The notes under the pieces: generated by a model
Databases searched by the model: none
Told to the model about the DNA's origin: nothing
What the model saw: only the letters and a program-made list of their open reading frames with translations
Translations under genes and position numbers: made by a program
Shown: in pieces, positions 11,241-25,157 of the stretch
How the letters are laid out: each line of letters starts with the position of its first letter
Position numbering within the stretch: the first letter of the stretch is position 1
Origin: Candidatus Tyrphobacter aquilonaris
GTDB taxonomy: Bacteria > Vulcanimicrobiota > Vulcanimicrobiia > Vulcanimicrobiales > Vulcanimicrobiaceae
Direction: 5' to 3'
Length of the DNA stretch: 42,492 nt
Assembly (NCBI GenBank): GCA_003133745.1
Contig: PKZD01000025.1
Coordinates: 1 to 42,492, forward strand

Positions 11241-11983
11241 AACACTCTCTCGGGCGTTACCTCTACGGCGTGGCGGCGATTGCTTCCGGTATCTGTACCT
11301 TGGTGTGGCATGACGTGAGCACGCTTGGAAGCGTTCCTCACCGCGAGATTCTCGTGTACGTCGTGGCCGCCGTCGAAATTCTTGGGGGCGTAGCCGTTGC
11401 GTGGCCGAGAACGCCCCGAGCCGGCGCCGTCGCCCTCGGTGCACTCTACTTCATCTTCGCCATGTTGGGCGTACCGCTCATCATTGCGCATCCGCTCGTC
11501 TACAACGGCTTTGGAAACTTCTTCGAACAATTCTCATTCGTCGCGGGGGCCATGATCCTGTATGCGTGTTCGGGTCCACTCGCCCCGGCTCGAACGGCAC
11601 GATTGGCTCAGATCGGGTACTACTCGTTCGGTATTTGCGTTGTCTCGTTCGCACTGGAACAGCTTTTCTATCTCTCTGCAACAGCAAGTCTCGTTCCGAA
11701 ATGGATTCCGCCTGGACAAATGTTCTGGGCGATCGCGACGACCACCGCGTTTGCTCTTGCCGCGATCGCTCTGCTCACGGGGTTCATGGCCCGGCTCGCG
11801 GCTCGATTGACCACGGCGATGATCGTGGGTTTCGGGTTGCTCGTATGGTTGCCGGCGCTCTTTGCCGGTCCTCATAGTTATCCGAACTGGAGCGAAAGCG
11901 TGGAGACGCTCGGGATCGCCGCGACAGCGTGGATTGTCGCGGACTTTCTCGGCCACCGTCGCTCGGCGGACGTTAAGACATGA
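11237..11983 (+). CDS. polytopic membrane protein, DoxX-like size and topology
   Basis: Starting at ATG 11237, which shares ATGA with the upstream stop, this encodes 248 residues. There are about seven hydrophobic segments: YGVAAIASGICTLVW, EILVYVVAAVEILGG, VALGALYFIFAMLGV, AGAMILYACS, YSFGICVVSFAL, AIATTTAFALAAIALL and MIVGFGLLVWLPALF. A conserved-looking GPHSYPNW precedes the last helix. The arrangement resembles DoxX/DUF-type small membrane proteins, but no diagnostic motif is certain. The longer reading frame in this phase, from 10745, is a shadow of the upstream gene and was discarded. The function is unknown; coupling to the anchored protein suggests a two-component membrane complex. 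Confidence 0.65.
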   Translation: MKHSLGRYLYGVAAIASGICTLVWHDVSTLGSVPHREILVYVVAAVEILGGVAVAWPRTPRAGAVALGALYFIFAMLGVPLIIAHPLVYNGFGNFFEQFSFVAGAMILYACSGPLAPARTARLAQIGYYSFGICVVSFALEQLFYLSATASLVPKWIPPGQMFWAIATTTAFALAAIALLTGFMARLAARLTTAMIVGFGLLVWLPALFAGPHSYPNWSESVETLGIAATAWIVADFLGHRRSADVKT

Positions 11984-12551
11984 GCATGCTGGAACTGGCC
12001 GCGCTCTGGGATAAGACATCGTAACGCAGCTTGCCCGTGGCAGCGACTCGTACGCCTAGAGTTGGAACGTGCGGATGGAGTTTTCGGTCGTGCATCAAAT
12101 GCCGAACGTCAACGTCGTGCAGCAACATGGCGGCATCGGATATGAGCCGGCGATGACACCGCCACCACAGCGTTTCCGAGCACATGATTACAGTTCGCGC
12201 ATCGGTCGCGCGTGCCAGCAGTTCGTCCAAGGCAAGCGCGAACTCGTCCGACTCCATGTAATCGGCGTACGCGCGGAAAGCCGGATGACGCAGCGCAACG
12301 TTGCTGCTCTCGGGATTGCGTTTGCGGAACCCGCCTAGAGCGGGCTGCCAAGAATAGACGCTGCCGCTGAGCTGCGGAACCCACCGTTCCATTTCTTCTC
12401 GCCAGAACTGGGGGTGGCGTCGACTCTTCGGTATTGTCCGCACGTCGACGAGCCGTTTAATCTCAGCGTTGCGAATCAGTCCGGCAAGTTCGTCGGCAGT
12501 GGCAGTCCCGTGTCCAAGAGTAATCAGTGGGCTGTTGCATTTTGATGTCAC
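11973..12551 (-). CDS. DUF488 domain protein
   Basis: This 192-residue protein has the DUF488 hallmarks: an N-terminal TLGHGT strand-turn, DVRTIPKSRRHPQF near residue 36, a W/F-rich middle, and MCSETLWWRCHRRLI with a conserved Cys and His near residues 123-136, followed by HLMHD. The fold and conserved Cys/Arg suggest a small nucleic-acid or phosphoester-related enzyme, but the family function is not established. The start is GTG 12551. It overlaps the convergent membrane-protein gene by 11 bases and follows the 83-residue gene by 34 bases on the same strand, so it may be the last gene of the long operon beginning at 25,635. Confidence 0.85.
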   Translation of the reverse strand: MTSKCNSPLITLGHGTATADELAGLIRNAEIKRLVDVRTIPKSRRHPQFWREEMERWVPQLSGSVYSWQPALGGFRKRNPESSNVALRHPAFRAYADYMESDEFALALDELLARATDARTVIMCSETLWWRCHRRLISDAAMLLHDVDVRHLMHDRKLHPHVPTLGVRVAATGKLRYDVLSQSAASSSMLMS

Positions 12552-12865: not shown

Positions 12866-14545
12866 CTAGATATATGGCAGCAAGTCGAAGTATTCTTCAT
12901 CTTCTTTTGCCCCGCCCTGACCGTCACCTAGGGCCTTCTCGGTCTCGACGAAGCGAATCTCGCGAATCCATTTGACCATCTTGAAGCCGAGCTGATTTTC
13001 GACGCGCAAACGCACCGGCGCACCATGCACCCGCGGAAGCGGCATGCCGTTCATCTCGTAGGCGAGAAGACACTCGGGCTTGACGAGGTCTTCGACCCGT
13101 TGCGTATCGTAGTAGGCTCCGCCGAAGGTCCCTTCGCCGAATGAGATGAACTCGACGACGCTCGCGCCCGGTAGCGGTTTCACCAATCCGATAACGCGCA
13201 CCATCGAGATGCCGCCCCATTGTGCGATTCCACTCCACCCTTGAATGCAGTGATGCAACGACACGTGCTCGTCGCGCGGGAGAGCCCGAAGCTCGTCCAG
13301 ACTCAAGTCAACCGGATTCTCGACGCGACCGCTAACCCGCAAGCGATAACCGTGGAAGTCCTCCGCCGCGAGGCGCTTCCATTCGTCGGAATCCGGCATC
13401 TTGCCGTTCGCCCAAAAGTACGGCGAGATGTCCTTTCGCGTGTAGCGCTCCCTCGGATTCAATCGAGTGGAGGCTCTCATGATACGCTCAAGCGGGAGGA
13501 TCAACATCTCGTGGAAGCGTTGAATCGCACGCGGCGACCTCCATGCGACAACATGCGCGGCGATCCACGAGCCCACGACGAGCGCAAGACCGATGCAGCC
13601 GATGATCAGTCCTAGCGGCCGCGTGTCGTCGGTGCCCATGACAATGTGGTTGAAGTTGCGCTGCGCCCCGGTTAAGAACACGAGGCTGACGTGCATGATG
13701 ACGAATGCAACATATCCGCACAGCAGCATGAAGTGGATTGAGCGGGCGCCCTGGCGCCCACTGAAGATGCGCGGATACCAGGGGAAGGCGTTATCGACTG
13801 CGGGCGACATCGCAATTCCCGTCAAGATGGAGAGTGGCGCCATGATGAAAACGACGGCGAAGTACGCGAGCTGCTGCAGCGCGTTGTACGCATAGAAGCC
13901 ATTCGGCTCAGCCGGAAAGTGAAAGGTCACGTAGTGCACGAAAGTTTCCCATGCGTACGGGACGATCGCCCACGACGTTGGAACCAGGCGCGGCCATTGC
14001 CCGCTAGCGAACAGCATGCCGACGTAGATAATGCCGACGAAAATAAAGCCATAGTCCGTGATGAAATGCCACGACCGGCTCATTCCGATCGTGTGTCGAT
14101 ATCCGGGCAAGGCGATCAGCGGCGAGATGTAACGCGCGTCGTCGTTCGCCGTCCAGATGCGATCCTTCGGGACCTCCAGCGGCGTCAGTCGCAGCCACTC
14201 CGTTCCCGGCGTGCAGCCGTTGTTCCAGTAGAGCCGCGGGTGATCCATAACGATTGATAAACCACTGCGGATCAGGAGAAAGATGAACAGCAGATTCGCA
14301 AAGTGGGTCCAGCGAATCCATACCGGAAAGCCGCGCGGCGCGCCGTTGGGTGCGCCGATGGTGATGCCGGCGACCGGCACCGATGCGGAGTGGATTCCGA
14401 GTACGAGTACCTGCAGCCAGGCGAGCAGGATCGGCACGATGACGATCATCACGAGCAAGATGATGTAGCGCCCCGACAGGATCACGACCATGCGACGATC
14501 GTCCGGCAGGTGAACCTTCCGATGCGCCTCGTCAAACGAAGGCAC
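12866..14545 (-). CDS. cytochrome b561-type membrane domain fused to a sulfite oxidase-fold molybdopterin domain
   Basis: This 559-residue fusion has six predicted membrane helices in residues 20-330 with several helix-borne His residues (WTHFANLL, HFMLLCGY, VIMHVSLV) suited to b-type haem. The C-terminal domain (about 370-559) is of the YedY/sulfite-oxidase type, with LHHCIQGWSG supplying the Mo-ligand Cys433 and EMNGMPLPRVHGAPVR downstream. No Tat signal is present. The GTG start at 14545 was chosen because GGGAG lies six bases upstream and it overlaps the preceding stop by one base (TAGTG); the longer frame only shadows the cyclase gene. Basic residues flank helix 1 and follow helix 6, so both ends, and the Mo domain, should be cytoplasmic. 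The likely role is electron transfer between a substrate and quinone; the substrate is unknown. Confidence 0.85.
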   Translation of the reverse strand: MPSFDEAHRKVHLPDDRRMVVILSGRYIILLVMIVIVPILLAWLQVLVLGIHSASVPVAGITIGAPNGAPRGFPVWIRWTHFANLLFIFLLIRSGLSIVMDHPRLYWNNGCTPGTEWLRLTPLEVPKDRIWTANDDARYISPLIALPGYRHTIGMSRSWHFITDYGFIFVGIIYVGMLFASGQWPRLVPTSWAIVPYAWETFVHYVTFHFPAEPNGFYAYNALQQLAYFAVVFIMAPLSILTGIAMSPAVDNAFPWYPRIFSGRQGARSIHFMLLCGYVAFVIMHVSLVFLTGAQRNFNHIVMGTDDTRPLGLIIGCIGLALVVGSWIAAHVVAWRSPRAIQRFHEMLILPLERIMRASTRLNPRERYTRKDISPYFWANGKMPDSDEWKRLAAEDFHGYRLRVSGRVENPVDLSLDELRALPRDEHVSLHHCIQGWSGIAQWGGISMVRVIGLVKPLPGASVVEFISFGEGTFGGAYYDTQRVEDLVKPECLLAYEMNGMPLPRVHGAPVRLRVENQLGFKMVKWIREIRFVETEKALGDGQGGAKEDEEYFDLLPYI

Positions 14546-15216
14546 TAGAACTCCCAGAGCATGGCACGAGCCCATGCCCCGCTCGCACCCCGTAATCTCA
14601 CCGGCGCGGCTACGAAGAGCCGCTTCTTCCCGTCCATGACTTCGTCGGGGAAGTACAACTCCTCGACGATGACCTTGCCGTTGCCGAGCATTGCTTTGTG
14701 CGCCGGCCCCGATTTGCTTGGATCCTTGTAGCCACCGAGGCTCACGGCGTCGATGCCCACGCCTTTGATGCCGCGGTCGACTAAATACTGTGCTGCCTCG
14801 CCGCCGAGATATACGTACTCCGTGAGGAACTCTTTCGTGTTCGCGCGCTTGTGCCCCCAACCGGTATTAAGAAGAACGAAGTCTCCCTCGGCGATACACT
14901 CGGCAAAGCGCTCGACCTCTGCGCGCACGATCGCGGAGCCGGGCTTCTTCCCGCGCAGATCGAGAATCGTTGCCGGACCGACATAGGTGTCGAGCGGTAT
15001 CCGATCGATCGTCTCGCCGTCCTCGAAGAAATGATACGGTGCGTCGCAATGCGTGCCTGTGTGCGTGCTCATCTCGACAATCTCTTTGTTCACACCTTGC
15101 ACTGCCAGCATATAGAATAGCTGAATCTGCGCGGGGCGCGGATTCTCGTCGGGGTACTGCGGGCAGTTCGTGAAAACCGGTTGGCTTAGGTCGTGAATTC
15201 GCGCCGGCAGATTCAT
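14545..15216 (-). CDS. cyclase family protein (kynurenine formamidase-like metal hydrolase)
   Basis: This 223-residue protein carries the cyclase-family motif H-x-G-T-H-x-D-x-P-x-H: His52, His56, Asp58 and His62 in STHTGTHCDAPYHF. These residues bind the divalent metal in kynurenine formamidase and related enzymes. A later segment, GVGIDAVSLGG, is also typical. The start ATG at 15216 has AGGAG six bases upstream and shares ATGA with the previous gene. Members hydrolyse formylkynurenine, lactams, lactones or isatin. In this carbohydrate-like operon a lactone or other cyclic ester is at least as plausible as formylkynurenine, although a kynA-kynU pair does occur at the other end of the window. 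Confidence 0.85.
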   Translation of the reverse strand: MNLPARIHDLSQPVFTNCPQYPDENPRPAQIQLFYMLAVQGVNKEIVEMSTHTGTHCDAPYHFFEDGETIDRIPLDTYVGPATILDLRGKKPGSAIVRAEVERFAECIAEGDFVLLNTGWGHKRANTKEFLTEYVYLGGEAAQYLVDRGIKGVGIDAVSLGGYKDPSKSGPAHKAMLGNGKVIVEELYFPDEVMDGKKRLFVAAPVRLRGASGAWARAMLWEF

Positions 15217-16070
15217 TCCGCACTCCTCTCCCACACGCGTCCGAATGCGTCGAGGTTCTTATGCAGCGTCGCGTCGAGGTCCGAGCGCCAGATGGAATCG
15301 GGCAGCGACTCGCCCGAGAATATCTCCAAGACGTACGGTCCAGTGTAGCCGGTTTCGCGAATCGTACGCACGATCGCAACGTGGTCGATACTCCCATCGC
15401 CCAGGCTGATCCGATCCGCGCCCGAGCGCGGCCGATGCCAGTCGCTCACCTGCACCAGAAAAATGCGACCGGCGCAGGCGCGAATCACATCGTGGAGATC
15501 GGGGGTTTGAAAGATGTTCCACGTGTCCACGCACAAGCCGAGCGCTTCATGGCCGACGCGTCGAACCAGTTCGAGCGCCTGATCGAGTCCCCAAAGCGCG
15601 GTATCGGTATTGAAAAGTACGGGATTGAGCGGCTCGTAGGCGAGACGCATCTTCTGCTTCGCTGCGAACTCGGCGAGGTCGGCGAACGCTTCGAGCGCCT
15701 TCTCGTAGACCATGGCCGTGTCGCCACCTGGCGCGGCGCCCGTGATGACGACGAAGGGCGTCTTTTCCGGCACATGGGGGGCGATGCGCTCGATGGCCCT
15801 CTTGATGTGCCGAACGCGATCCTCAGGCGCCGTCGGCTGATTCGCCAAACTATCGGGGAAGAGCGAGTGAACCTCCGACTGCACCGAGCTCACCGTCAGG
15901 CCCGTCGCCGCGATCGCTTTGAGTTGCGGTGCATAATCGTTCCGGTCAAGTTTGAACTCGCAGACCTCAATCGCGGTCACGCCGTGCGCGGAGTACCGTT
16001 CCACGTCGCGCTCGAACGACCAGGGCCATGTCGTGAATTCGCTCACGCCGAAAGGAAGCTGCGATCTCAT
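15213..16070 (-). CDS. sugar phosphate isomerase/epimerase-like TIM barrel protein
   Basis: This 285-residue protein has AP-endonuclease-2-like (xylose isomerase-like) TIM barrel features: FGVSEFTTWPW at the start, AYEPLNP with a metal-type Glu near 150, LCVDTWNIF near 190, VQVSDWHRP with Asp/His near 222, and YVLEIFSGE with a final Glu near 260. Glu, Asp, His and Glu in these places normally bind a divalent metal. Two tandem ATGs overlap the previous stop; the second (16070) is preferred because GGAGG lies four bases before it. Relatives include hydroxypyruvate isomerase, inosose dehydratase and 3-keto-sugar epimerases. The substrate is not predictable here; an isomerisation or dehydration step in a sugar pathway is inferred. 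Confidence 0.85.
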   Translation of the reverse strand: MRSQLPFGVSEFTTWPWSFERDVERYSAHGVTAIEVCEFKLDRNDYAPQLKAIAATGLTVSSVQSEVHSLFPDSLANQPTAPEDRVRHIKRAIERIAPHVPEKTPFVVITGAAPGGDTAMVYEKALEAFADLAEFAAKQKMRLAYEPLNPVLFNTDTALWGLDQALELVRRVGHEALGLCVDTWNIFQTPDLHDVIRACAGRIFLVQVSDWHRPRSGADRISLGDGSIDHVAIVRTIRETGYTGPYVLEIFSGESLPDSIWRSDLDATLHKNLDAFGRVWERSAE

Positions 16071-18499
16071 CATGCCTCCGGCCGCAACTCGATGACGCAG
16101 AAGCCTTGTCGGTCGAGTTGCACCGCGCGGCCATCGCGCAATTCGCCGGCGCTGCGCATCCGGCTTTCCGTCCACTCTGCGCTTAAACTATTGTACGAGG
16201 CCACCGCGTAAGAAGTATCCGATTTCAAGTCCAAATACACCGCCGTTGTGATCGTACGATCCATCGTGTTCCCCACGAAAATTGTCACATCGCGACCCCT
16301 GCGTAGCGCTAACACAACCGCCGCATCGACGCTACAGCGCACCTGCGTCGATATGTCCTCGCCGTAGATCTCGCACGGCAGCGTTTGGTCGAAATGAAAG
16401 TTCGAATAGAGTTTGAGACCGGGTGCGCGAACGACGAACCATGTCACGTTCTTACCGGCGAGCGGCACGTTGCGTACACCCATCCACTTCCAATCCGGCG
16501 CGAGGCGCGGAACGAGCTTTGGCGTCCCTTCCGAGAGGTCCAGGCCCGCTGCGCCTTCGATCGCGGCCCATAGGTACTGTGGCGGGAACCACGGCGAAAG
16601 CATCATGCCCTGATTGACGAGGGTCTCGCCGTGCAGCCATTCCGAGAACTGCCCCGGCACCGTGTTGTTGCGGAGCGGATCGCTCGAATAGTGGCGAAAA
16701 CTCGCGGAGAGCGCGTATGCCATGAACTCGGGATTAAAGCGCGCGGCTGCGAAAGCATACCAAAATGTCACGTTGACCCAAATGCCGCCGAGGAGGCCGT
16801 ACCCGTGCGTCGGTCCGTAGTTGATCGCGTTGCGCGGAACAGTACGAATGCCGGCGTCGCTCCAAAATCCCGGCACGGAGAGGCGGCTGATGATGTGCGC
16901 TGCCGCCTGCTCGTCCGCGACGCCGAACATCACCGGAAAAACCAGGTCGGCCGTGACGTCGGTGCGTGGGCGGCCGTTGAGGTCGATGTTGAGATAGTAG
17001 AGGCCGGTCTCCCTGTCGAGCAGGTGCGTGTTAATCGCCTTGCGCAGACTCTTCGCGTGGGCGCGAAACGCCGCGCTCTCCTCAGGCTTCTTTAGAACGC
17101 GCGCCATGTTTCCGATCGTGTTGAGCGCGGCGTAGCACTCCGAATTCACCTCTGTCGTTGCGCCCGAGAGCCGGTAATCCTTGATGACATTGCGCCAGCC
17201 GACGATACCCCAGTCCGAGACTCCGGTCGCGGTGCACCACACCAACCCGCGCTTGTTCCGCTGCGAAAGGATGTAGTTCGCCGCCTTCAGCGCGTACGGG
17301 TAGACCTTCCTAAGAAATATCAGGTCCCCAGTGATCGTATAATGATGCCAGAGGGCGAGAATCAGGAGCGGCGTGTTGTCATTGATGTTGAGGCCGTAGT
17401 CTTCGCTCTTGCCGTTGCGAATGTCGTGGTACTCGACGACCATGCCGCTCTTCTCGAGGTGCGTTGCATACCACAGCAGTGACTCCCGCGAAAACGCCGG
17501 CGTGATGTAGTCCGAGCCGAAGGCGAACCACGCCGTATCGCGGGCGACACTGTTGTTCGTTCGCGTCGGGTCGTTGACGAAGCACCAACCGGTCTTCGCG
17601 AGGACCTGCGTGCGCAGCATATTGGCCTTGGCCCACAGCACGCCACGGTTAACGTCCCGGTCCGGCGTCATGACGATCGCGCGGTCGAGTATATCGCCGT
17701 AGTACTCGTGCGTCGCCTGCAGTGCTCGCTTTGCCGACGGGCAGCGCGCATAGGTACGCATCGCCGAGGCGCGCCCGCGCACCGAGAACGAAAGGGTGAA
17801 ATAGAATGAGGCGCTTTGTCCCGCCTTTAGACGGTGGCGCAAGTGCAGCATGCCGATCGGATCGTCGGCGCGCGCGATGGTTTTGTTACCAAGCCTGCCT
17901 GCAAAAGAGGCCCGGCTCGGCTTCCCGTCGTCGTCGGTCGATTCGTAGCTGCTCGGTTCGACCGAGCATCCGAAGACTCGCACCACGGCGGGATCCGAGG
18001 TATTCCAGGCGACGAGCGCGCGATGCGCCTTGCTGTACGCCGTCGCCACGTCATGCAAAGTGTTGCCCCGCAACTGTGCTGCCGCATACGTGCTGATGAT
18101 CTCTTCTTTGTCGGTATCGTTGGTCAGCGTCACCGCGTAGTACGCCGCAGGCGGATCGACACGATATCCGTGCGGTTTGCCGCTCAGAAGGAAGATGTCT
18201 TCCCGGACCGTCAGGCCATTGGATAGCTGGAAGACGTGCTCCTGATGCTCCGGATGGATGACGAACTTTCCTGGGAATGCCGCTAGTGGTATGCCGTTTC
18301 GGTCGTCGAAGTGATGCAGCACGACGCTGCCGATCAGCGCCTTGCCGACGTCGACTGAGTAAAACTTCTCAATCGCGCCCGTCGCCTTAATGACCAGCGT
18401 TGCTTTCGGGGATCCGAGCGTACTCCCGGCGGCCGTCTCGTGGTCGGAAATCTCGAACCTCGAAGCGCGCTCGCCCGACCCGAAAATTTTCGCGGTCAT
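16070..18499 (-). CDS. six-hairpin (alpha/alpha-barrel) glycoside hydrolase-like protein
   Basis: This 809-residue soluble protein has an N-terminal beta-rich region (about 1-270) and a helical barrel (about 290-680). Barrel features include NVNRGVLWAKANMLR-type repeats, DTAWFAFGSDY, HHYTITGDL, a TGVSDWG motif, EVNSECYAAL with a candidate acid Glu, and a Trp-rich region after residue 600. A C-terminal beta-sandwich follows. This is the layout of amylo-alpha-1,6-glucosidase-like and GH-G clan-like enzymes. No signal peptide is present, so it acts on imported or internal glycosides. The ATG shares ATGA with the upstream SDR stop. I cannot name the glycosidase family with confidence; a phosphorylase or glycoside-binding protein of the same fold is possible. 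Confidence 0.75.
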   Translation of the reverse strand: MTAKIFGSGERASRFEISDHETAAGSTLGSPKATLVIKATGAIEKFYSVDVGKALIGSVVLHHFDDRNGIPLAAFPGKFVIHPEHQEHVFQLSNGLTVREDIFLLSGKPHGYRVDPPAAYYAVTLTNDTDKEEIISTYAAAQLRGNTLHDVATAYSKAHRALVAWNTSDPAVVRVFGCSVEPSSYESTDDDGKPSRASFAGRLGNKTIARADDPIGMLHLRHRLKAGQSASFYFTLSFSVRGRASAMRTYARCPSAKRALQATHEYYGDILDRAIVMTPDRDVNRGVLWAKANMLRTQVLAKTGWCFVNDPTRTNNSVARDTAWFAFGSDYITPAFSRESLLWYATHLEKSGMVVEYHDIRNGKSEDYGLNINDNTPLLILALWHHYTITGDLIFLRKVYPYALKAANYILSQRNKRGLVWCTATGVSDWGIVGWRNVIKDYRLSGATTEVNSECYAALNTIGNMARVLKKPEESAAFRAHAKSLRKAINTHLLDRETGLYYLNIDLNGRPRTDVTADLVFPVMFGVADEQAAAHIISRLSVPGFWSDAGIRTVPRNAINYGPTHGYGLLGGIWVNVTFWYAFAAARFNPEFMAYALSASFRHYSSDPLRNNTVPGQFSEWLHGETLVNQGMMLSPWFPPQYLWAAIEGAAGLDLSEGTPKLVPRLAPDWKWMGVRNVPLAGKNVTWFVVRAPGLKLYSNFHFDQTLPCEIYGEDISTQVRCSVDAAVVLALRRGRDVTIFVGNTMDRTITTAVYLDLKSDTSYAVASYNSLSAEWTESRMRSAGELRDGRAVQLDRQGFCVIELRPEA

Positions 18500-19263
18500 A
18501 GATTACCGGATTTCTGCATCATGCCGCCGTCGATAACATAGGATGAGGCGGTGATGTACGCACCGGCTTCCGAAGCTAGAAAGATGCAGAGTTCTGCGAT
18601 CTCCTCAGGCTTCGCCATACGGTGAAGCGGAATCTCGGAGAGGAGCGCGTCGTATTTCTTCGGGTCTCGCGTGAGGGCGGCGTCCATCGGCGTGTCCACC
18701 GCCCCCGGGCACACGTTGTTGACCGTGATGCCGTGTGGTGCGAGCTCCACGGCGATGGTCCGCATCAACATTCGCACGCCGCCCTTCGAAGCGCAGTACG
18801 GGGCGTTGGTCGGCATCGTCAAATCTTCGTGAACGGACGAGATGTTGATGATTCGCCCGCCGCGCTCTTGCTTTACCATCTGTCTCGCAGCGCGTTGCGA
18901 ACACAGCCAGACGCCCGTCAGGTTGATGTCGACGATCTTCGAATAAACCTCGAACGGCATTTCTAGGAAGGGGGCTTTTTTCTCGACGCCCGCGTTGTTC
19001 ACAAGAATGTCGAGGCGGCCGAAGTGCTTGACGGTCTGCGCGATCAGCGCATCGACCTCGTCCGGATTCGAGACGTCGGCAGCGAACGCAGCCGCCTTAC
19101 CGCTGAAGGTTTCGATCTGTTCGACCAGAGCATGTGCCGGCCCATCGCCACCAACGTAATCGATCATGACGCCGGCGCCTTCGCGCGCCATCTCAAGCGC
19201 AATCGCCTTGCCGATTCCGCTATCGCCGCCGGTTACGAGTGCGATCTTATCTGCGAGGCGCAT
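18496..19263 (-). CDS. short-chain dehydrogenase/reductase (sugar 1-dehydrogenase-like)
   Basis: This 255-residue classical SDR has the cofactor motif TGGDSGIG (residues 11-18), NNAG at 89-92, Asn114, catalytic Ser143, Tyr156 and Lys160 (YCASK), and a C-terminal GGMMQ-type end. Residues GDSGIGKAIA and an acidic/neutral site after strand 2 (MIDYVGGD) leave NAD or NADP open. The overall look is of glucose 1-dehydrogenase or 3-oxoacyl reductase relatives. Its start overlaps the upstream dehydrogenase by 17 bases and its stop overlaps the glycosidase start, so the three are tightly coupled. In context it likely oxidises a sugar hydroxyl released by the glycosidase. Confidence 0.9.
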   Translation of the reverse strand: MRLADKIALVTGGDSGIGKAIALEMAREGAGVMIDYVGGDGPAHALVEQIETFSGKAAAFAADVSNPDEVDALIAQTVKHFGRLDILVNNAGVEKKAPFLEMPFEVYSKIVDINLTGVWLCSQRAARQMVKQERGGRIINISSVHEDLTMPTNAPYCASKGGVRMLMRTIAVELAPHGITVNNVCPGAVDTPMDAALTRDPKKYDALLSEIPLHRMAKPEEIAELCIFLASEAGAYITASSYVIDGGMMQKSGNL

Positions 19264-22243
19264 GGATTGCCATATAGCGCAGTTCCGGGAAAGGGTCGTT
19301 GTGGGCCTCGCCGCGATCGTCGATCGCCATCTTCAGCACTTGGGCCGGGTGCAAGGCAAGGCGGTTCGTTGCCTGCGCGATCTGTTCGCGACAGCTAAAC
19401 CCGTTCGCTACGACAATCGTGCTCTTGTCCGCCTCCCGCACTTTCGGCAGAAGAACGCGTTCGCCGATCGTCATGGACACGCCGTAGTGCTTGGCTTCGA
19501 AGCCGAACGGCCCGGCCATCCCGCAGCAGCCGCTATCCGGAATTTCATAGTCGAGGCCGATCGCATCGAACAACTTGCGCTCACCGGAAGTATCGAGAAT
19601 CGCTTTTTGATGGCAATGCTCTTGGACCAGCGCCTTGCGATGGAGTTGCGGCGGCGCATATTCGGGCGCTTTCTTCGCCAGAAATTCGGTGAACAGGTAC
19701 GTCTGCTCCTTTAAGCGCGCTGCATCCTCATCAGGGCCGAGCAGATTGACCATCTCGTCGCGAAAGACTGAGACGCAACTCGGCTCGAGCCCGATCACGT
19801 ATACGCCCGCACGAATCTGCGGACGAAGTGCCTCAAGCACGTTCTGGAGCATCTTCTCGGCCAAATCGAGCATGCCGAAATCGTAGAGCGGGCGTCCGCA
19901 GCAGAGCTGCATCTTGGGAATCGTGACGCGGAACCCCGCGTCCTCGAGCACCTCAACCGCCGCCTGCGCCGTTGTCGGGTGGAAGTGGTTGTTCCAGGTA
20001 TCCGGCCACAGGATCACATCGCCTTTTGGAGCCGGTTGCGAACGAGGCTCTCTCGCAGCGAACCACGCGCGGAACGTTTGGGGGGCAAAGAGCGGAATCT
20101 TGCGTCGCGGTGCGATCGAAACGACAGCCTTGGCAATATCGCGTAAAATGGGAGCCTGCGTTAGCGCATTCACGAGTCCCGGCGCGAGCGAAGCGAGGCG
20201 CGACCACCAATATATCAAACCAAACGCGTAGGCGGCGATGGGTCGCCGCTTGTGCTCGTAATAGTGTGAAAGGAACTCGGCCTTGTACGTCGCCATGTCG
20301 ACGTTGACCGGACATTCGCCCTTGCATCCCTTGCACGACAGGCACAGGTCGAGCGCGTCCTTGACTGCTTCGTCCTGCCACCCGTTCTCCATTGGGTTGC
20401 CTTCGAGCATCTCAAAGAGCAATCGCGCGCGTCCACGCGTCGAGTATGCCTCTTCCTTCGTTGCCATGTAGCTCGGACACATCGTCCCGCCGTCATGCTT
20501 GCGACACTTGCCCGTGCCGACACAGCGGTTCGCAGCGAAAGCAAAGCTTCCGTGGTCTTCCTCGAACTTGAAATGGGTCTTCGGTTCCCACGGCTGGTAA
20601 TTAATTCCCCACCGCAAGTTCTCATCGAGCTTGTACGGATGCACGACCTTGCCGGGATTCATCTTATGCTGCGGATCCCAGATCGATTTGAACTCCCAAA
20701 ACGCCTGCACGAGTTCGTCGCCGTACATGATCGGCAACAGCTCACCGCGCGATTGTCCGTCGCCGTGTTCGCCCGAAAGCGATCCGCCGTGCTCAACGCA
20801 GATGTGCGCCATCTTCGTGACGAACTCGCGGTATTTGGCAATGCCCTGCGCCGTGAACAGATCGAAGTCGATGCTTACGTGCACGCACGCTTGACCGAAG
20901 TGCCCATAGATCGAGCCCTTATAACCATACTCGTCCAGCATCGCTTCGAACTTGCGCAAATAGTCGCCCAAGCGCTTAGGATCGACCGCCGAATCCTCCC
21001 AACCGGGATAGTAATCCGGTTGATTGGGAATCTTTGACGTTGCGCCGAGCGCGTTATCGCGGAACGTCCAGAGGCGCTCTTGTTGCCCGTGATCTTCGAT
21101 GAGCTTTGTGGTCGGCGGATCGGCCTTCGCCTTGAACGCCTCCATTAGCCGATGGGCACACGCGGACGCCTCTTCGGGAGTCTCGCCTCCGAACTCGCAG
21201 ATGAGCCATCCGTTGCCGTCCGGGAACATCGAACGCCCATTGTCGGATTCGCCTTTTAACTCCATATACCGAAACATCGAATCCGCCATGCCTTCGAGAG
21301 CGATCGGCTTGTATTCATCACAAAACGGCACGTGATCGCCCGCGGTCGCCAAGTCGGAGAATCCGAGCATCAGCAGCACGCGATGGGGCGGGCTGTGCAC
21401 GAGTCGCACCGTGGCTTCGAGCACCGTCACGCACGTGCCCTCAGTACCGACGAGCGCTCGCGCGACGTTGAATCCATTTTCGGGCAAAAGCTCGTTCAGC
21501 GGAAAACCCGAGACGCGCCGTGGAATCTTTGGAAAACGTGCGCGGATTTGATCAGCGTACTTATCCCGCAATGCTCTGAGCTGCGCATAGATCTCGCCCT
21601 GGCGGCCTCCGGCTGCGATGATCCGCTCGATCTCCTCCTCGGAAGTGCGCCCGACGCGCATGCGCGCGCCGTCGTACGTTACAATGTCGAGTTCTTCGAC
21701 GTTTTCTTCCGTCTTGCCGGCCATCTGAGCATGCATCCCGCACGAATTGTTGCCGATCATTCCGCCAAACGTATTGCGATTATGCGTAGCTGGATCCGGG
21801 CCAAACGTGAGATGTCGCTCTTCCGCCTTGTTGCGCAAATCGTCGTTCACGCAGCCCGGTTGAACGCGCGCCCTCTTTCCTTCCCAATCGATCTCGACGA
21901 TGCGGTTCATATACTTGCTGAAGTCCATGACCACGGCCGCATTGCACGTCTCACCGGCAAGGCTGGTGCCGCCGCCACGCGAGAATACGGGCGCGCCAAA
22001 CATGCGGCAGGCAGCAAGCGTCCGTTCCACATCCTGCGCATCCTTGGGAAGGACGAGGCCGATCGGCACCTGTCGGTAATTCGACGCATCCGTCGCATAC
22101 ATCGCGCGCGTTCCAGCGTCGAACCGAACCTCGCCGCGAATAGTCCGACGGAGTTCCGCTTCAAGTCCCTCTGCATCCACGTCCACCTCATTGACCGAGC
22201 CCGGCCTCTGCGTGGGTTTCGGACGCGTACCGTCGCGGCTCAT
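19247..22243 (-). CDS. FAD/4Fe-4S D-2-hydroxyacid dehydrogenase (YdiJ-like)
   Basis: This 998-residue protein combines, in order, a FAD_binding_4 (VAO-type) domain (about 40-230; GGGTSLAGET-like Gly-rich loop), FAD-oxidase C-terminal domain (about 240-500), two 4Fe-4S cysteine clusters (CVGTGKCRKHDGG near 572 and CLSCKGCKGECP near 632), and two CCG domains (LCCGRP near 780; DSGCCGMAG near 900). This is the one-chain GlcD-GlcF arrangement of E. coli YdiJ, known as D-2-hydroxyglutarate dehydrogenase. Related enzymes oxidise D-lactate or glycolate and reduce quinone or a carrier. ATG 22243 was chosen; earlier residues of the open frame shadow the enolase gene. It probably feeds electrons to respiration in this operon. 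Confidence 0.92.
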   Translation of the reverse strand: MSRDGTRPKPTQRPGSVNEVDVDAEGLEAELRRTIRGEVRFDAGTRAMYATDASNYRQVPIGLVLPKDAQDVERTLAACRMFGAPVFSRGGGTSLAGETCNAAVVMDFSKYMNRIVEIDWEGKRARVQPGCVNDDLRNKAEERHLTFGPDPATHNRNTFGGMIGNNSCGMHAQMAGKTEENVEELDIVTYDGARMRVGRTSEEEIERIIAAGGRQGEIYAQLRALRDKYADQIRARFPKIPRRVSGFPLNELLPENGFNVARALVGTEGTCVTVLEATVRLVHSPPHRVLLMLGFSDLATAGDHVPFCDEYKPIALEGMADSMFRYMELKGESDNGRSMFPDGNGWLICEFGGETPEEASACAHRLMEAFKAKADPPTTKLIEDHGQQERLWTFRDNALGATSKIPNQPDYYPGWEDSAVDPKRLGDYLRKFEAMLDEYGYKGSIYGHFGQACVHVSIDFDLFTAQGIAKYREFVTKMAHICVEHGGSLSGEHGDGQSRGELLPIMYGDELVQAFWEFKSIWDPQHKMNPGKVVHPYKLDENLRWGINYQPWEPKTHFKFEEDHGSFAFAANRCVGTGKCRKHDGGTMCPSYMATKEEAYSTRGRARLLFEMLEGNPMENGWQDEAVKDALDLCLSCKGCKGECPVNVDMATYKAEFLSHYYEHKRRPIAAYAFGLIYWWSRLASLAPGLVNALTQAPILRDIAKAVVSIAPRRKIPLFAPQTFRAWFAAREPRSQPAPKGDVILWPDTWNNHFHPTTAQAAVEVLEDAGFRVTIPKMQLCCGRPLYDFGMLDLAEKMLQNVLEALRPQIRAGVYVIGLEPSCVSVFRDEMVNLLGPDEDAARLKEQTYLFTEFLAKKAPEYAPPQLHRKALVQEHCHQKAILDTSGERKLFDAIGLDYEIPDSGCCGMAGPFGFEAKHYGVSMTIGERVLLPKVREADKSTIVVANGFSCREQIAQATNRLALHPAQVLKMAIDDRGEAHNDPFPELRYMAIHAPRR

Positions 22244-22253
22244 GCTGAAGACA

Positions 22254-23345
22254 TCAAAGAGCGTACCGCTCGGCGTCAGCGAGGCGTAGCTCCAAACCGA
22301 TGCCAGGACGCGTGGCATCAGGCGACAGTTCGCCCTTCTCTGGATTCCTGGTACCGTCGAAAAGCATTCGTTCAATTCGAGTGTGGTCGAAAAAATACTC
22401 GATGTGGCGCAGTTGCTTGCATGCCATTGCCGCGTGCAAGTGCAGGTGCGGCGCACAATGGGTCGAGAGCGGTGTCATCGTGCTCTGACACAAACCGTCC
22501 ACGGCGAGCAGCCCGGAAAAACCGCCACATCGCGTGGCGTCGGCTTGCAGAACATCGACGGCTTGCGCTTCGATCATGCGAGCAAACGTGTAGAGGCCGT
22601 ATCCGTACTCCCCCGACGAGATATCCATCCCGGGCGGCGCATGTTCGCGCACGAAACGTGTCCCCGCGTAGTCCTCGCGATAGACCGGCTCTTCGAACCA
22701 TGTTACCTGTTGCTCCGCAAAGCTCTGCGCAAGTCCGATCGCCTGCTGAGCGGAGTACGCGCCGTTTGCGTCGATAAAGAGCTCGGCGTCACGGCCGATT
22801 GCAGCCCGTGCCGCCGCGACGCGTCCGGGATCGGCGCGCGGGTCGCGACCGACCTTCATTTTGACGCGAGGGATGCCTTCGTTCACCCAACCGGCGAGCT
22901 GGTCGCAGAGCTGTTGCTTTGAGTACGCGGTAAATCCGCCACTGCCATAGACCGGGACGCTGCTGCGCGTCGCACCAAACAGCATGTACACCGGAACGCC
23001 GAGAAGCTTTCCTTTCAGGTCCCATAGCGCCACGTCCACTGCGGAAACCGCCATTGATGTAACGCCGCCGCGCCCAAGGTTGCGCGACGTAGCATACATA
23101 TCGCTCCATCGCGCTGCGATTTGGGTCGCGTCCTTCCCGACGATCGCCTCTGACAAGATGGTCTCGATGAACTTCGCCGTTGCAATGTCAGCGTACGTGA
23201 AGCCTATTCCCGTCACGCCGGCAGCGCTTACTTCGACATAGACCAGCGTCGTGGAGTCCCATGTCAACGTGCCGTCCGATTCCGGCGTCGCGGTTGGAAT
23301 CCTATAGGCGCGCACTTTGAGTGCGTCGATCCGCGCATCGGCCAT
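22254..23345 (-). CDS. enolase superfamily, mandelate racemase-type (likely acid sugar dehydratase)
   Basis: This 363-residue enzyme shows the mandelate racemase-subgroup active site. Numbered from the longer GTG-started frame, the base pair is Lys169-x-Lys171 (VKMKVG), metal ligands are Asp199 (FIDANG), Glu225 (WFEEPV) and Glu253 (SSGEYG), and the second base dyad is Asp276 (QADATRCGG) with His303 (STHCAPH). All positions match MR spacing. Most members with this set dehydrate acid sugars such as gluconate, galactonate or fuconate. ATG 23345 is preferred over GTG 23366 because MADARIDALKVRAYRIPT is a normal family start. No strong Shine-Dalgarno sequence is visible. In the operon it would follow the SDR step. 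Confidence 0.9.
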   Translation of the reverse strand: MADARIDALKVRAYRIPTATPESDGTLTWDSTTLVYVEVSAAGVTGIGFTYADIATAKFIETILSEAIVGKDATQIAARWSDMYATSRNLGRGGVTSMAVSAVDVALWDLKGKLLGVPVYMLFGATRSSVPVYGSGGFTAYSKQQLCDQLAGWVNEGIPRVKMKVGRDPRADPGRVAAARAAIGRDAELFIDANGAYSAQQAIGLAQSFAEQQVTWFEEPVYREDYAGTRFVREHAPPGMDISSGEYGYGLYTFARMIEAQAVDVLQADATRCGGFSGLLAVDGLCQSTMTPLSTHCAPHLHLHAAMACKQLRHIEYFFDHTRIERMLFDGTRNPEKGELSPDATRPGIGLELRLADAERYAL

Positions 23346-23369
23346 CACAGCAGCCGTCGGCGACACCGC

Positions 23370-25157
23370 TTACTTGCTCGGGCCGTGTGGCAAGAATCCC
23401 GCAAGCACCTCTTTGATCGACTCTTTGAGCACGCCGACTCTATCGGGGTCGCCTTTGGAAAGTGCCGAGAAAAGGTTGTGTGCCTGCTCGAACGTGATAT
23501 GCGGCGGCAACTGCGAGATATTCGGGTCGACGACCGCGTCGAAGATCACCGGCCGGTCAGAGGCCAAAGCGCGATCCCACGCCGGGCCGACGTCCTCTGA
23601 ACGGTCGACGCGAATGCCGTTGAGGCCGATCTGATCGGCGTATTCTGCATAATTGAAATGCGGCAGATTCTGAGAGGCTTCGTATTTCGGGTTGCCGCTT
23701 TCGATGCGCATCTCCCAGGTGACTTGATTGAGGTCCGAATTGTTCATTACCAGAAAAATGAGTCGCGGGTCTTTCCATCGCTTCCAGTACTTCGCGACGG
23801 TAAGCATCTCGGCGTTGCCGTTCATCTGCATCGCGCCATCGCCGGTGCACGCGATAACGACGCGATTGGGGAACGCAAACTTCGCAGCGATTGCGTACGG
23901 GACTGCAGATCCCATCGTCGCCAACCCCCCGGAGAGTGAGGACTTCATCCCACGCCGCAAGTGGATGTTCCGTGCAAACCAGTTCGTCGCCGTGCCGGCA
24001 TCGCCGCTGAGGATTGCCTCATCGGGGAGCCGCTCGTTCAGCTCCCAAAACACGAGTTGCGGGTTGATCTGCTCACCCTTGACGTGGCAGCGCGCCTCTT
24101 CATCGGCATGCCAAGATGTGAGGCCTTTCGCGATCTTCTGGCGCCACGCGTTCCCCGTTTTCGATTTGAGCAAGGGAAGCAGCGCTGCGAGTGTCTGCCG
24201 GCTGTCACCGATCAAATTCACTTCTGTTGGGAAGCGCAGCCCAACGTTGCGCGCGTCGATGTCGATTTGTACGCCACGAGCCTGCCCTTCTTTGGGCAGG
24301 AACTCCGAATACGGATAGCAGGTACCGACCATGAGCAACGTATCGCACTCATTCATCATATCGGAACTTGGGCGCGTGCCCAGCAGCCCGAGAGTCCCGG
24401 TAACGTATGGTAAATCGTCGGGGACGACATATTTACCCAGCAATGCCGTTGCGATTCCGGCACCCAAGCGGTCGGCAACGGCAAGAACCTCATCGGTTGC
24501 ATTCGCAGCGCCTTGGCCAACCATCATCGCCACACGCTCGCCTGCATTGAGTATATCGGCCGCCCGGTGCAGATCGGGCTGCGCTGGTACCACGATGGGC
24601 GCCGAGTAGCCAACGCTGCTGCGCATCATGTTGTGCGTATGGGGCGGGTATGGAACGGCGTCCTTTTCTTGGACGTCCTTTGGAACGATCACGCACGCGA
24701 CGGCCCGAAAAGCGGCGGCGGTTCGAACGGCCCGATCGACGACGTGACGCATCGCGGCCGGGCTTGAAACGGTGTAAACGTACTCCGTCACATCTTGCAG
24801 AAGCACCTGAAGATCGACTTCTTGCTGATATGAGCCGCCGAGCGCCGAGGTTGCCGCCTGTCCAACGATCGCCACGACCGGCGTATGGTCCATCTTCGCG
24901 TCGTAAAGGCCGTTCAGCAGGTGTACAGCCCCCGGCCCCGATGTCGCAAGGCAGAGACCAACCTCTCCTGTGTACTTCGCGTGCGCGCAGGCCATGAACG
25001 CCGCCATCTCTTCGTGGCGAACTTGGATGAACTCGAGTTTATCGCCGATTCGATCAAGAGCACCCATGATGCCGTTGATACCGTCGCCGGGGTAGCCGTA
25101 GACGCGCTTAAAACCCCACGCCACAAGCCGCTCGAGTAAGAAATCGCTGGTGTTCAC
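23370..25157 (-). CDS. thiamine pyrophosphate-dependent enzyme, pyruvate oxidase/acetolactate synthase-like
   Basis: This 595-residue enzyme has three canonical domains. The N-terminal PYR domain contains YGYPGDGINGI and the cofactor-activating Glu in RHEEMAA. The central domain (about 190-330) has GLLGTRPS and a DIDARNVGLR segment, and the C-terminal PP domain has the ThDP/Mg motif beginning GDGAMQMNGN and ending NNSDL. The closest familiar relatives are PoxB/YdaP-type pyruvate oxidases, which use FAD and quinone. Acetolactate synthase and sulphoacetaldehyde-type enzymes are alternatives. The GTG start at 25157 has AAGGA eight bases upstream and lies one base after the STAS stop. It may handle the pyruvate or 2-oxoacid end product. 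Confidence 0.88.
   Translation of the reverse strand: MNTSDFLLERLVAWGFKRVYGYPGDGINGIMGALDRIGDKLEFIQVRHEEMAAFMACAHAKYTGEVGLCLATSGPGAVHLLNGLYDAKMDHTPVVAIVGQAATSALGGSYQQEVDLQVLLQDVTEYVYTVSSPAAMRHVVDRAVRTAAAFRAVACVIVPKDVQEKDAVPYPPHTHNMMRSSVGYSAPIVVPAQPDLHRAADILNAGERVAMMVGQGAANATDEVLAVADRLGAGIATALLGKYVVPDDLPYVTGTLGLLGTRPSSDMMNECDTLLMVGTCYPYSEFLPKEGQARGVQIDIDARNVGLRFPTEVNLIGDSRQTLAALLPLLKSKTGNAWRQKIAKGLTSWHADEEARCHVKGEQINPQLVFWELNERLPDEAILSGDAGTATNWFARNIHLRRGMKSSLSGGLATMGSAVPYAIAAKFAFPNRVVIACTGDGAMQMNGNAEMLTVAKYWKRWKDPRLIFLVMNNSDLNQVTWEMRIESGNPKYEASQNLPHFNYAEYADQIGLNGIRVDRSEDVGPAWDRALASDRPVIFDAVVDPNISQLPPHITFEQAHNLFSALSKGDPDRVGVLKESIKEVLAGFLPHGPSK

Follow-up and report, generated by a model that had tools for sequence, protein, structure and literature searches.

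A cytochrome b fused to a YedY-like molybdenum domain that is predicted to face the cytoplasm in Candidatus Tyrphobacter aquilonaris and relatives

Overview

The window, a stretch of 42,492 nucleotides from Candidatus Tyrphobacter aquilonaris, contains a gene that joins a cytochrome b to a molybdenum (Mo) domain. From its sequence, the product is predicted to be a quinone-linked membrane molybdoenzyme whose single chain combines a two-haem cytochrome b of the FdnI/HyaC type (TM2-TM5) with a YedY-like Mo domain. It is quite probable that this Mo domain is cytoplasmic and that the cytochrome core is inverted compared with a two-gene version of the enzyme. The reversal of loop charges between the fused unit and its two-gene relatives is what leads to this reading. 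In the open-licence literature, no description of this fusion was found.

The fusion gene and its domains

The gene starts with a GTG codon that has one base in common with the stop codon of the cyclase gene upstream (TAGTG; Table 1). Its product scores above the Pfam cut-off for Ni_hydr_CYTB over residues 73-292 (51.3 bits against 30.1) and above the curated cut-off for Oxidored_molyb over residues 396-537 (110.7 bits against 24). The first match, to FdnI/HyaC-type cytochromes b, is accompanied by four haem histidines including an HX13H pair, and the second, to the sulfite oxidase fold, by the Mo-ligand Cys433. The initial annotation, which had proposed a sulfite oxidase-fold domain with Cys433 as Mo ligand, is thereby borne out by Pfam and by the alignment with the YedY cysteine. 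Its Mo domain belongs to the short, YedY-type form, since YedY is the top sequence match in the PDB and the chain stops shortly past the domain. At the level of NCBIfam equivalogs, the protein stays below the cut-offs for MsrP (67.8 bits against 207), SorA (54 against 600), SorT (33 against 570) and SoxC (33 against 420). The fusion is not a product of chance, because the open frame and the domain order are kept in proteins with 62-83% identity from other Eremiobacterota and 36-57% identity from other bacteria and archaea.

Table 1. Coordinates of the fusion gene, its parts and neighbouring or related genes (positions in the window unless a locus is named; residues are those of the fused protein)
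Feature	Coordinates	Strand	Basis or remark
DUF488 gene	11973..12551	-	found repeatedly beside the fusion gene in several phyla; order and orientation differ
Cytochrome b-Moco fusion gene	12866..14545	-	559 aa; open reading frame, with two Pfam matches that exceed their cut-offs
Oxidored_molyb (YedY-like Mo) domain, residues 396-537	12935..13360	-	Pfam, 111 bits; genome scan gave identical coordinates
Cys433 codon, predicted Mo ligand	13247..13249	-	aligns with the YedY Cys in CVEAW
Basic linker past TM6, residues 332-370	13436..13552	-	9 Lys/Arg, 3 Asp/Glu
TM6, residues 310-331, cytochrome-to-Mo link	13553..13618	-	hydropathy, model; no preceding twin arginine
TM5, residues 271-291, haem ligands His271 and His285 (HX13H)	13673..13735	-	conservation of the HX13H pair
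TM4, residues 224-245	13811..13876	-	hydropathy and model
Loop TM3-TM4, residues 180-223	13877..14008	-	poor in Lys/Arg (1); start of the YNALQQ quinone-site-like motif (220-225); predicted outside
TM3, residues 160-179, haem ligand His160	14009..14068	-	invariant in A1; aligns with FdnI His57
TM2, residues 80-99, haem ligand His81	14249..14308	-	invariant in A1; aligns with FdnI His18
TM1, residues 27-48	14402..14467	-	hydropathy 2.95, model helix 25-49; extra helix missing in haloarchaeal and Corynebacterium members (alignment)
Basic N-terminal tail, residues 1-26, with Arg17-Arg18	14468..14545	-	5 Lys/Arg; predicted inside
Cyclase/arylformamidase-like gene	14545..15207	-	upstream, one-base overlap with the fusion gene; Pfam Cyclase
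TDT-family (SLAC1-type) anion-channel genes, haloarchaeal plasmids	L052 7600-8817; L057 4653-5684; L084 5572-6684		

Membrane helices and haem ligands

Six membrane helices had been annotated ahead of the Mo domain, and the same number was obtained from hydropathy and an AlphaFold model (25-49, 75-100, 156-181, 215-245, 264-291 and 310-336). A further helix after TM6 (338-357) looks amphipathic in the model and by hydropathy. The model, built on an alignment of 14 sequences, reached a mean pLDDT of only 57 and was used for the helix count and fold matches only; with such a value, its placement of the Mo domain relative to the haems was dropped.

Foldseek alone matched the Mo domain only, and the cytochrome core appeared after structural re-alignment (VIA), which paired residues 65-308 with FdnI (Z 10.0) and residues 74-296 with HyaC (Z 9.4). 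The HX13H pair is kept in 31 of the 32 fused proteins and in all 14 split cytochromes. YNALQQ of the fused protein aligns with FdnI Y109-K114 (YNAGQK), a region that is part of the quinone-inhibitor site of FdnI, and the YNxxQ motif is probably a quinone motif. FdnI and HyaC (PF01292) thus share with the fused protein the four-helix core, the positions of the haem ligands and the FdnI Y109-Q113 motif. They differ from it by an N-in core with 7 Lys/Arg in a cytoplasmic loop, by having no fused domain and by their partners, which are a periplasmic formate dehydrogenase or hydrogenase.

The two-gene version

Contig C69 of this genome, like most genomes of the phylum, encodes a two-gene version, with a gene for a four-helix cytochrome b followed by a gene for a Mo protein. 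The N-terminus of the Mo protein is MKRQLFIATSISAALAGC in the genome under study and MKRRIFLAS or MRRRLFIASS in others, and the rhizobial and Variovorax proteins carry canonical Tat motifs with a lipobox, for instance TRRRFLIGGTLGASALTLSGC. The subunit from the genome under study is a lipoprotein with a Tat-like signal, and it is from such signals that the Mo domain of the two-gene version is predicted to face outside. In Microvirga ossetica (L078 3935-6930), the two-gene version is directly followed by msrA and msrB.

This version resembles nSor of Acetobacteraceae, a similar two-gene enzyme for which quinone reduction was suggested by its authors (PMC10715153), and the YedY-like group treated in a review that considers the enzymes of group 1 (YedY) to be reductases (PMC7759655). 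Such enzymes, one copy of which lies in the genome itself, have in common with the fused protein a cytochrome core with four histidines, HX13H and YNxxQ, as well as a short Mo domain. However, they consist of two proteins, with a signal and a lipobox on the Mo subunit, while the fused protein is a single chain; their core helices 2 and 3 are joined by a basic loop, a Glu comes after the Mo cysteine, and their predicted orientation is opposite. A separate exported Mo subunit, as in the nSor/YedY-like enzymes, is lacking in the fused protein, and it is the paralogue in the genome that has the signal.

Loop charges and predicted orientation

The loop TM3-TM4, situated between core helices 2 and 3, contains 1-3 Lys/Arg in 31 fused proteins (net charge -3 to +1) against 7-10 in the equivalent loop of 14 split cytochromes (net +1 to +6), with no overlap between the two sets. 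FdnI and HyaC have 7 in the equivalent loop, which is cytoplasmic in their known structures. With 1 Lys/Arg against these 7, the basic cytoplasmic loop that goes with an N-in core in Ni_hydr_CYTB proteins is missing from the Tyrphobacter protein. In the fused set, the flanks before TM2 and after TM5 are also poor in basic residues, whereas the N-tail, the loop TM4-TM5 and the linker after TM6, on the opposite side, are rich in them.

Topology was scored by a simple Lys/Arg likelihood with assumed inside and outside frequencies of 0.16 and 0.065 and helix ends set by hand, the 60-residue loop TM2-TM3 being excluded because the positive-inside rule is weak for long loops. A Mo side inside received +5.5 to +12.7 nats in all 27 fused proteins scored, with +8.8 for the Tyrphobacter protein, against -4.1 to -8.8 nats in the 14 split proteins, and the signs were unchanged with frequencies of 0.14 and 0.08. 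Members with five helices gave +5.5 to +7.6, which would mean an N-out/C-in arrangement. An inverted core would be unusual, as the PF01292 proteins of known structure are, to our knowledge, all N-in.

The cytosol-facing Mo domain put forward in the initial annotation is therefore supported, and on firmer grounds than those offered there, by the reversal of loop charges against the exported two-gene version. The accompanying argument, that basic residues at both ends favour N-in/C-in, holds as far as the N-tail and the linker are indeed basic, but it is weakened by the fact that a patch of this kind past the last helix also occurs in the Tat-exported Sco3746 type.

Tat signals and the Sco3746 type

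The absence of a Tat signal, also claimed at the outset, is true of the position before TM6, where the Tyrphobacter protein has no twin arginine, but there is one at residues 17-18. This Arg17-Arg18 (DDRRMVVIL) precedes TM1 and is common to only part of the family. Six-helix proteins are not known to us to begin with a Tat signal, and we therefore read it as part of the basic inner tail.

Sco3746 is a fused haem-Mo protein whose last helix is inserted by Tat by means of the twin arginine that immediately precedes this helix, and positive charges follow (PMC5449189). Sco3746 thus provides an established example of a fusion with its Mo domain outside (PMC5449189), and since Sco3746 has a basic patch with that end outside, the patch after TM6 is no proof of a cytoplasmic Mo domain. 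As described, Sco3746 is likewise one chain with cytochrome helices, then a Mo domain, and basic residues past the last helix, but it differs by its five helices, the twin arginine before the last of them and the outside position of its Mo side (PMC5449189). Its haem histidines are described in TMD2-4, which does not match the fused cytochrome. The twin arginine directly before the last helix, which marks the Sec/Tat family of Sco3746, is absent from the Tyrphobacter protein. Matches on Streptomyces and Deinococcus plasmids were considered as Sco3746 homologues and rejected, as they are ordinary Mo proteins with a Tat signal.

By analogy, the fused cytochrome could be N-in as usual, with the N-tail outside and TM1 running out-to-in, and TM6 could take the Mo domain to the periplasm from Sec to Tat as in Sco3746. 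Such a topology would agree with an established kind of protein, basic patch included (PMC5449189), with the N-in cores of the FdnI/HyaC type, with the outside Mo domain of the two-gene relatives and with the TatC that the genome encodes. We regard it nevertheless as quite improbable. A twin arginine before TM6, as exports Sco3746, is present in only 1 of 28 aligned members, and the basic N-tail would lie outside and the loop TM3-TM4, with its 1-3 Lys/Arg, inside, contrary to all two-gene relatives. When fusion-bearing organisms were searched for cases without TatC, 19 of 21 had it and the remaining two were incomplete MAGs.

Electron direction and substrate

If the Mo domain is cytoplasmic, the N-tail would be inside and TM1 would set the cytochrome core in its inverted orientation; in five-helix members, a short outside N-tail would set it instead. 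The outer face of the membrane would then have the YNxxQ quinone site and the His81/His285 haem, and the inner face the His160/His271 haem and the Mo domain, with electrons exchanged between the quinone pool and a substrate in the cytoplasm. Tat export would not be required for the Mo domain. So arranged, the enzyme would build proton-motive force by oxidising quinol outside and reducing its substrate inside, and would spend it in the reverse direction. The energetically favoured direction would be the oxidation of quinol outside and the reduction at Mo of a cytoplasmic S-oxide, N-oxide or oxyanion, a reductase being favoured because group 1 enzymes are considered reductases (PMC7759655). That the enzyme is a quinol-linked reductase comparable to NarGHI appears evenly balanced. 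The likeness to NarGHI concerns the working only, with the quinol side outside and the Mo side inside as we infer for the fused protein; NarGHI belongs to another Mo family with another cytochrome, and no homology is claimed.

Two residues past the Mo cysteine, Gln is found in all 31 fused sequences covering the region, five of which were chosen by a Gln-requiring pattern and are not independent for this count, against Glu in 14 of 14 split proteins. This Glu-to-Gln replacement suggests a different active site. For the substrate and the direction of electrons, which we infer, it is the sole support found.

With the same cytoplasmic topology, the enzyme could instead oxidise a substrate in the cytoplasm, such as sulfite, and deliver the electrons to quinone. 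The fold is that of sulfite oxidase, and in the 3 of 3 haloarchaeal loci read, the fused gene adjoins a gene annotated as a TDT transporter (SLAC1 in the one tested), the SLAC1/TDT anion-channel family being one that includes sulfite exporters. Quinone reduction is moreover what the nSor authors suggest for the two-gene form (PMC10715153). An oxidase is nonetheless doubtful, for electrons would move outward in the inverted geometry at the expense of proton-motive force, the YedY enzymes of group 1 are regarded as reductases (PMC7759655) and the scores are far under the SorA, SorT and SoxC cut-offs.

Another candidate function is methionine sulfoxide reduction of the MsrP kind, on cytoplasmic proteins or free methionine sulfoxide, in an oxidative-stress response. 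MsrQ belongs to another cytochrome family than the fused cytochrome. MsrP/MsrQ (YedY/YedZ) shares the fold of the Mo domain and the ligand cysteine, and MsrP is the nearest characterised Mo enzyme, but its Mo protein is separate and Tat-exported and the fused protein scores far under the MsrP cut-off (68 against 207 bits). The msr genes after the Microvirga two-gene relative and the proximity of rhizobial fused loci to DUF488 and DUF2945 genes would fit such a role; the replacement of Glu by Gln in every fused protein covering the region does not, and no msr gene was seen beside the fused genes examined. We therefore judge this function unlikely.

Distribution of the fusion

Within the phylum, 13 genomes including the present one encode a fused protein. 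Beyond it, relatives occur in an Armatimonadetes-labelled MAG with two relatives (53-57% identity), in Ferruginibacter and related Bacteroidota (50-55%), in rhizobia, Burkholderiales, a Deltaproteobacteria-labelled MAG with one relative and Actinomycetota (about 44-47%), and in Corynebacterium marinum and haloarchaea (about 37%). Outside the phylum, the samples taken showed the fusion in few genomes (2-3 of about 240-250), a pattern that suggests horizontal spread.

TM1 is present in most fused members, while those of haloarchaea and Corynebacterium begin at TM2 and have five helices. In an unrooted tree of the cytochrome core and Mo domain, all fused and all split proteins are parted by a 100/100 branch. 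We lean slightly towards a single flip in evolution between an outward, Tat-exported form and an inward one, through fusion and a change in helix number, with subsequent spread across phyla and haloarchaea.

Several related genes depart from the common form. An Arthrobacter plasmid gene (L082 1055-1981) encodes a fused-type cytochrome through TM6 and has no Mo domain. The Methylocystis fused gene (L086 2981-5482) sits within a frame of about 830 residues that is annotated as a 'tetratricopeptide repeat protein', which possibly reflects an extra domain or an annotation error. A cytochrome-Mo match over residues 213-552 with five in-frame stops (L032, G041:C129:10973-12013) may represent a fusion in decay or the reading-through of a two-gene pair. 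YedY-like genes similar to the fused Mo domain (about 27% identity) are present on Escherichia, Shigella and Klebsiella plasmids.

Gene neighbourhood

The fusion has a DUF488 gene at a distance of no more than 5 kb on the contig under study, in other Eremiobacterota, in Bacteroidota and in a relative of the Armatimonadetes-labelled MAG, and also in rhizobia, Methylocystis and Variovorax. In 8 of the 17 genomes searched, one of the 1-4 DUF488 copies is found at this distance, when by rough estimate well under one would be expected by chance. DUF488 may be the best handle on the pathway; a solved structure for this neighbour was looked for and none was found. Small cupin genes adjoin the fusion in Ferruginibacter, a Chitinophagales MAG, an Armatimonadetes MAG and Rhodococcus.

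In the window, positions 16070-25157 hold a run of carbohydrate genes on the minus strand, the last gene of which is the fusion. Its members include a glycoside hydrolase, an SDR, a FAD/Fe-S dehydrogenase, an enolase-superfamily dehydratase and a TPP enzyme, and the run is partly common to one close relative (L002). As this context is common to that relative only, the cyclase and the sugar-gene operon were dropped as a clue to the substrate.

Significance

The orientation of such an enzyme in the membrane sets the side of its reaction and whether proton-motive force is generated or consumed by its electron transfer. If the predicted orientation is true, the fused protein would be a membrane-bound member of the sulfite oxidase family that is linked to quinone and faces inward, a kind of enzyme of which we know no characterised example. 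A cytochrome b and Mo domain pair would then exist in opposite orientations, often in one genome, which would allow direct tests of the positive-inside rule and of how respiratory topology evolved.
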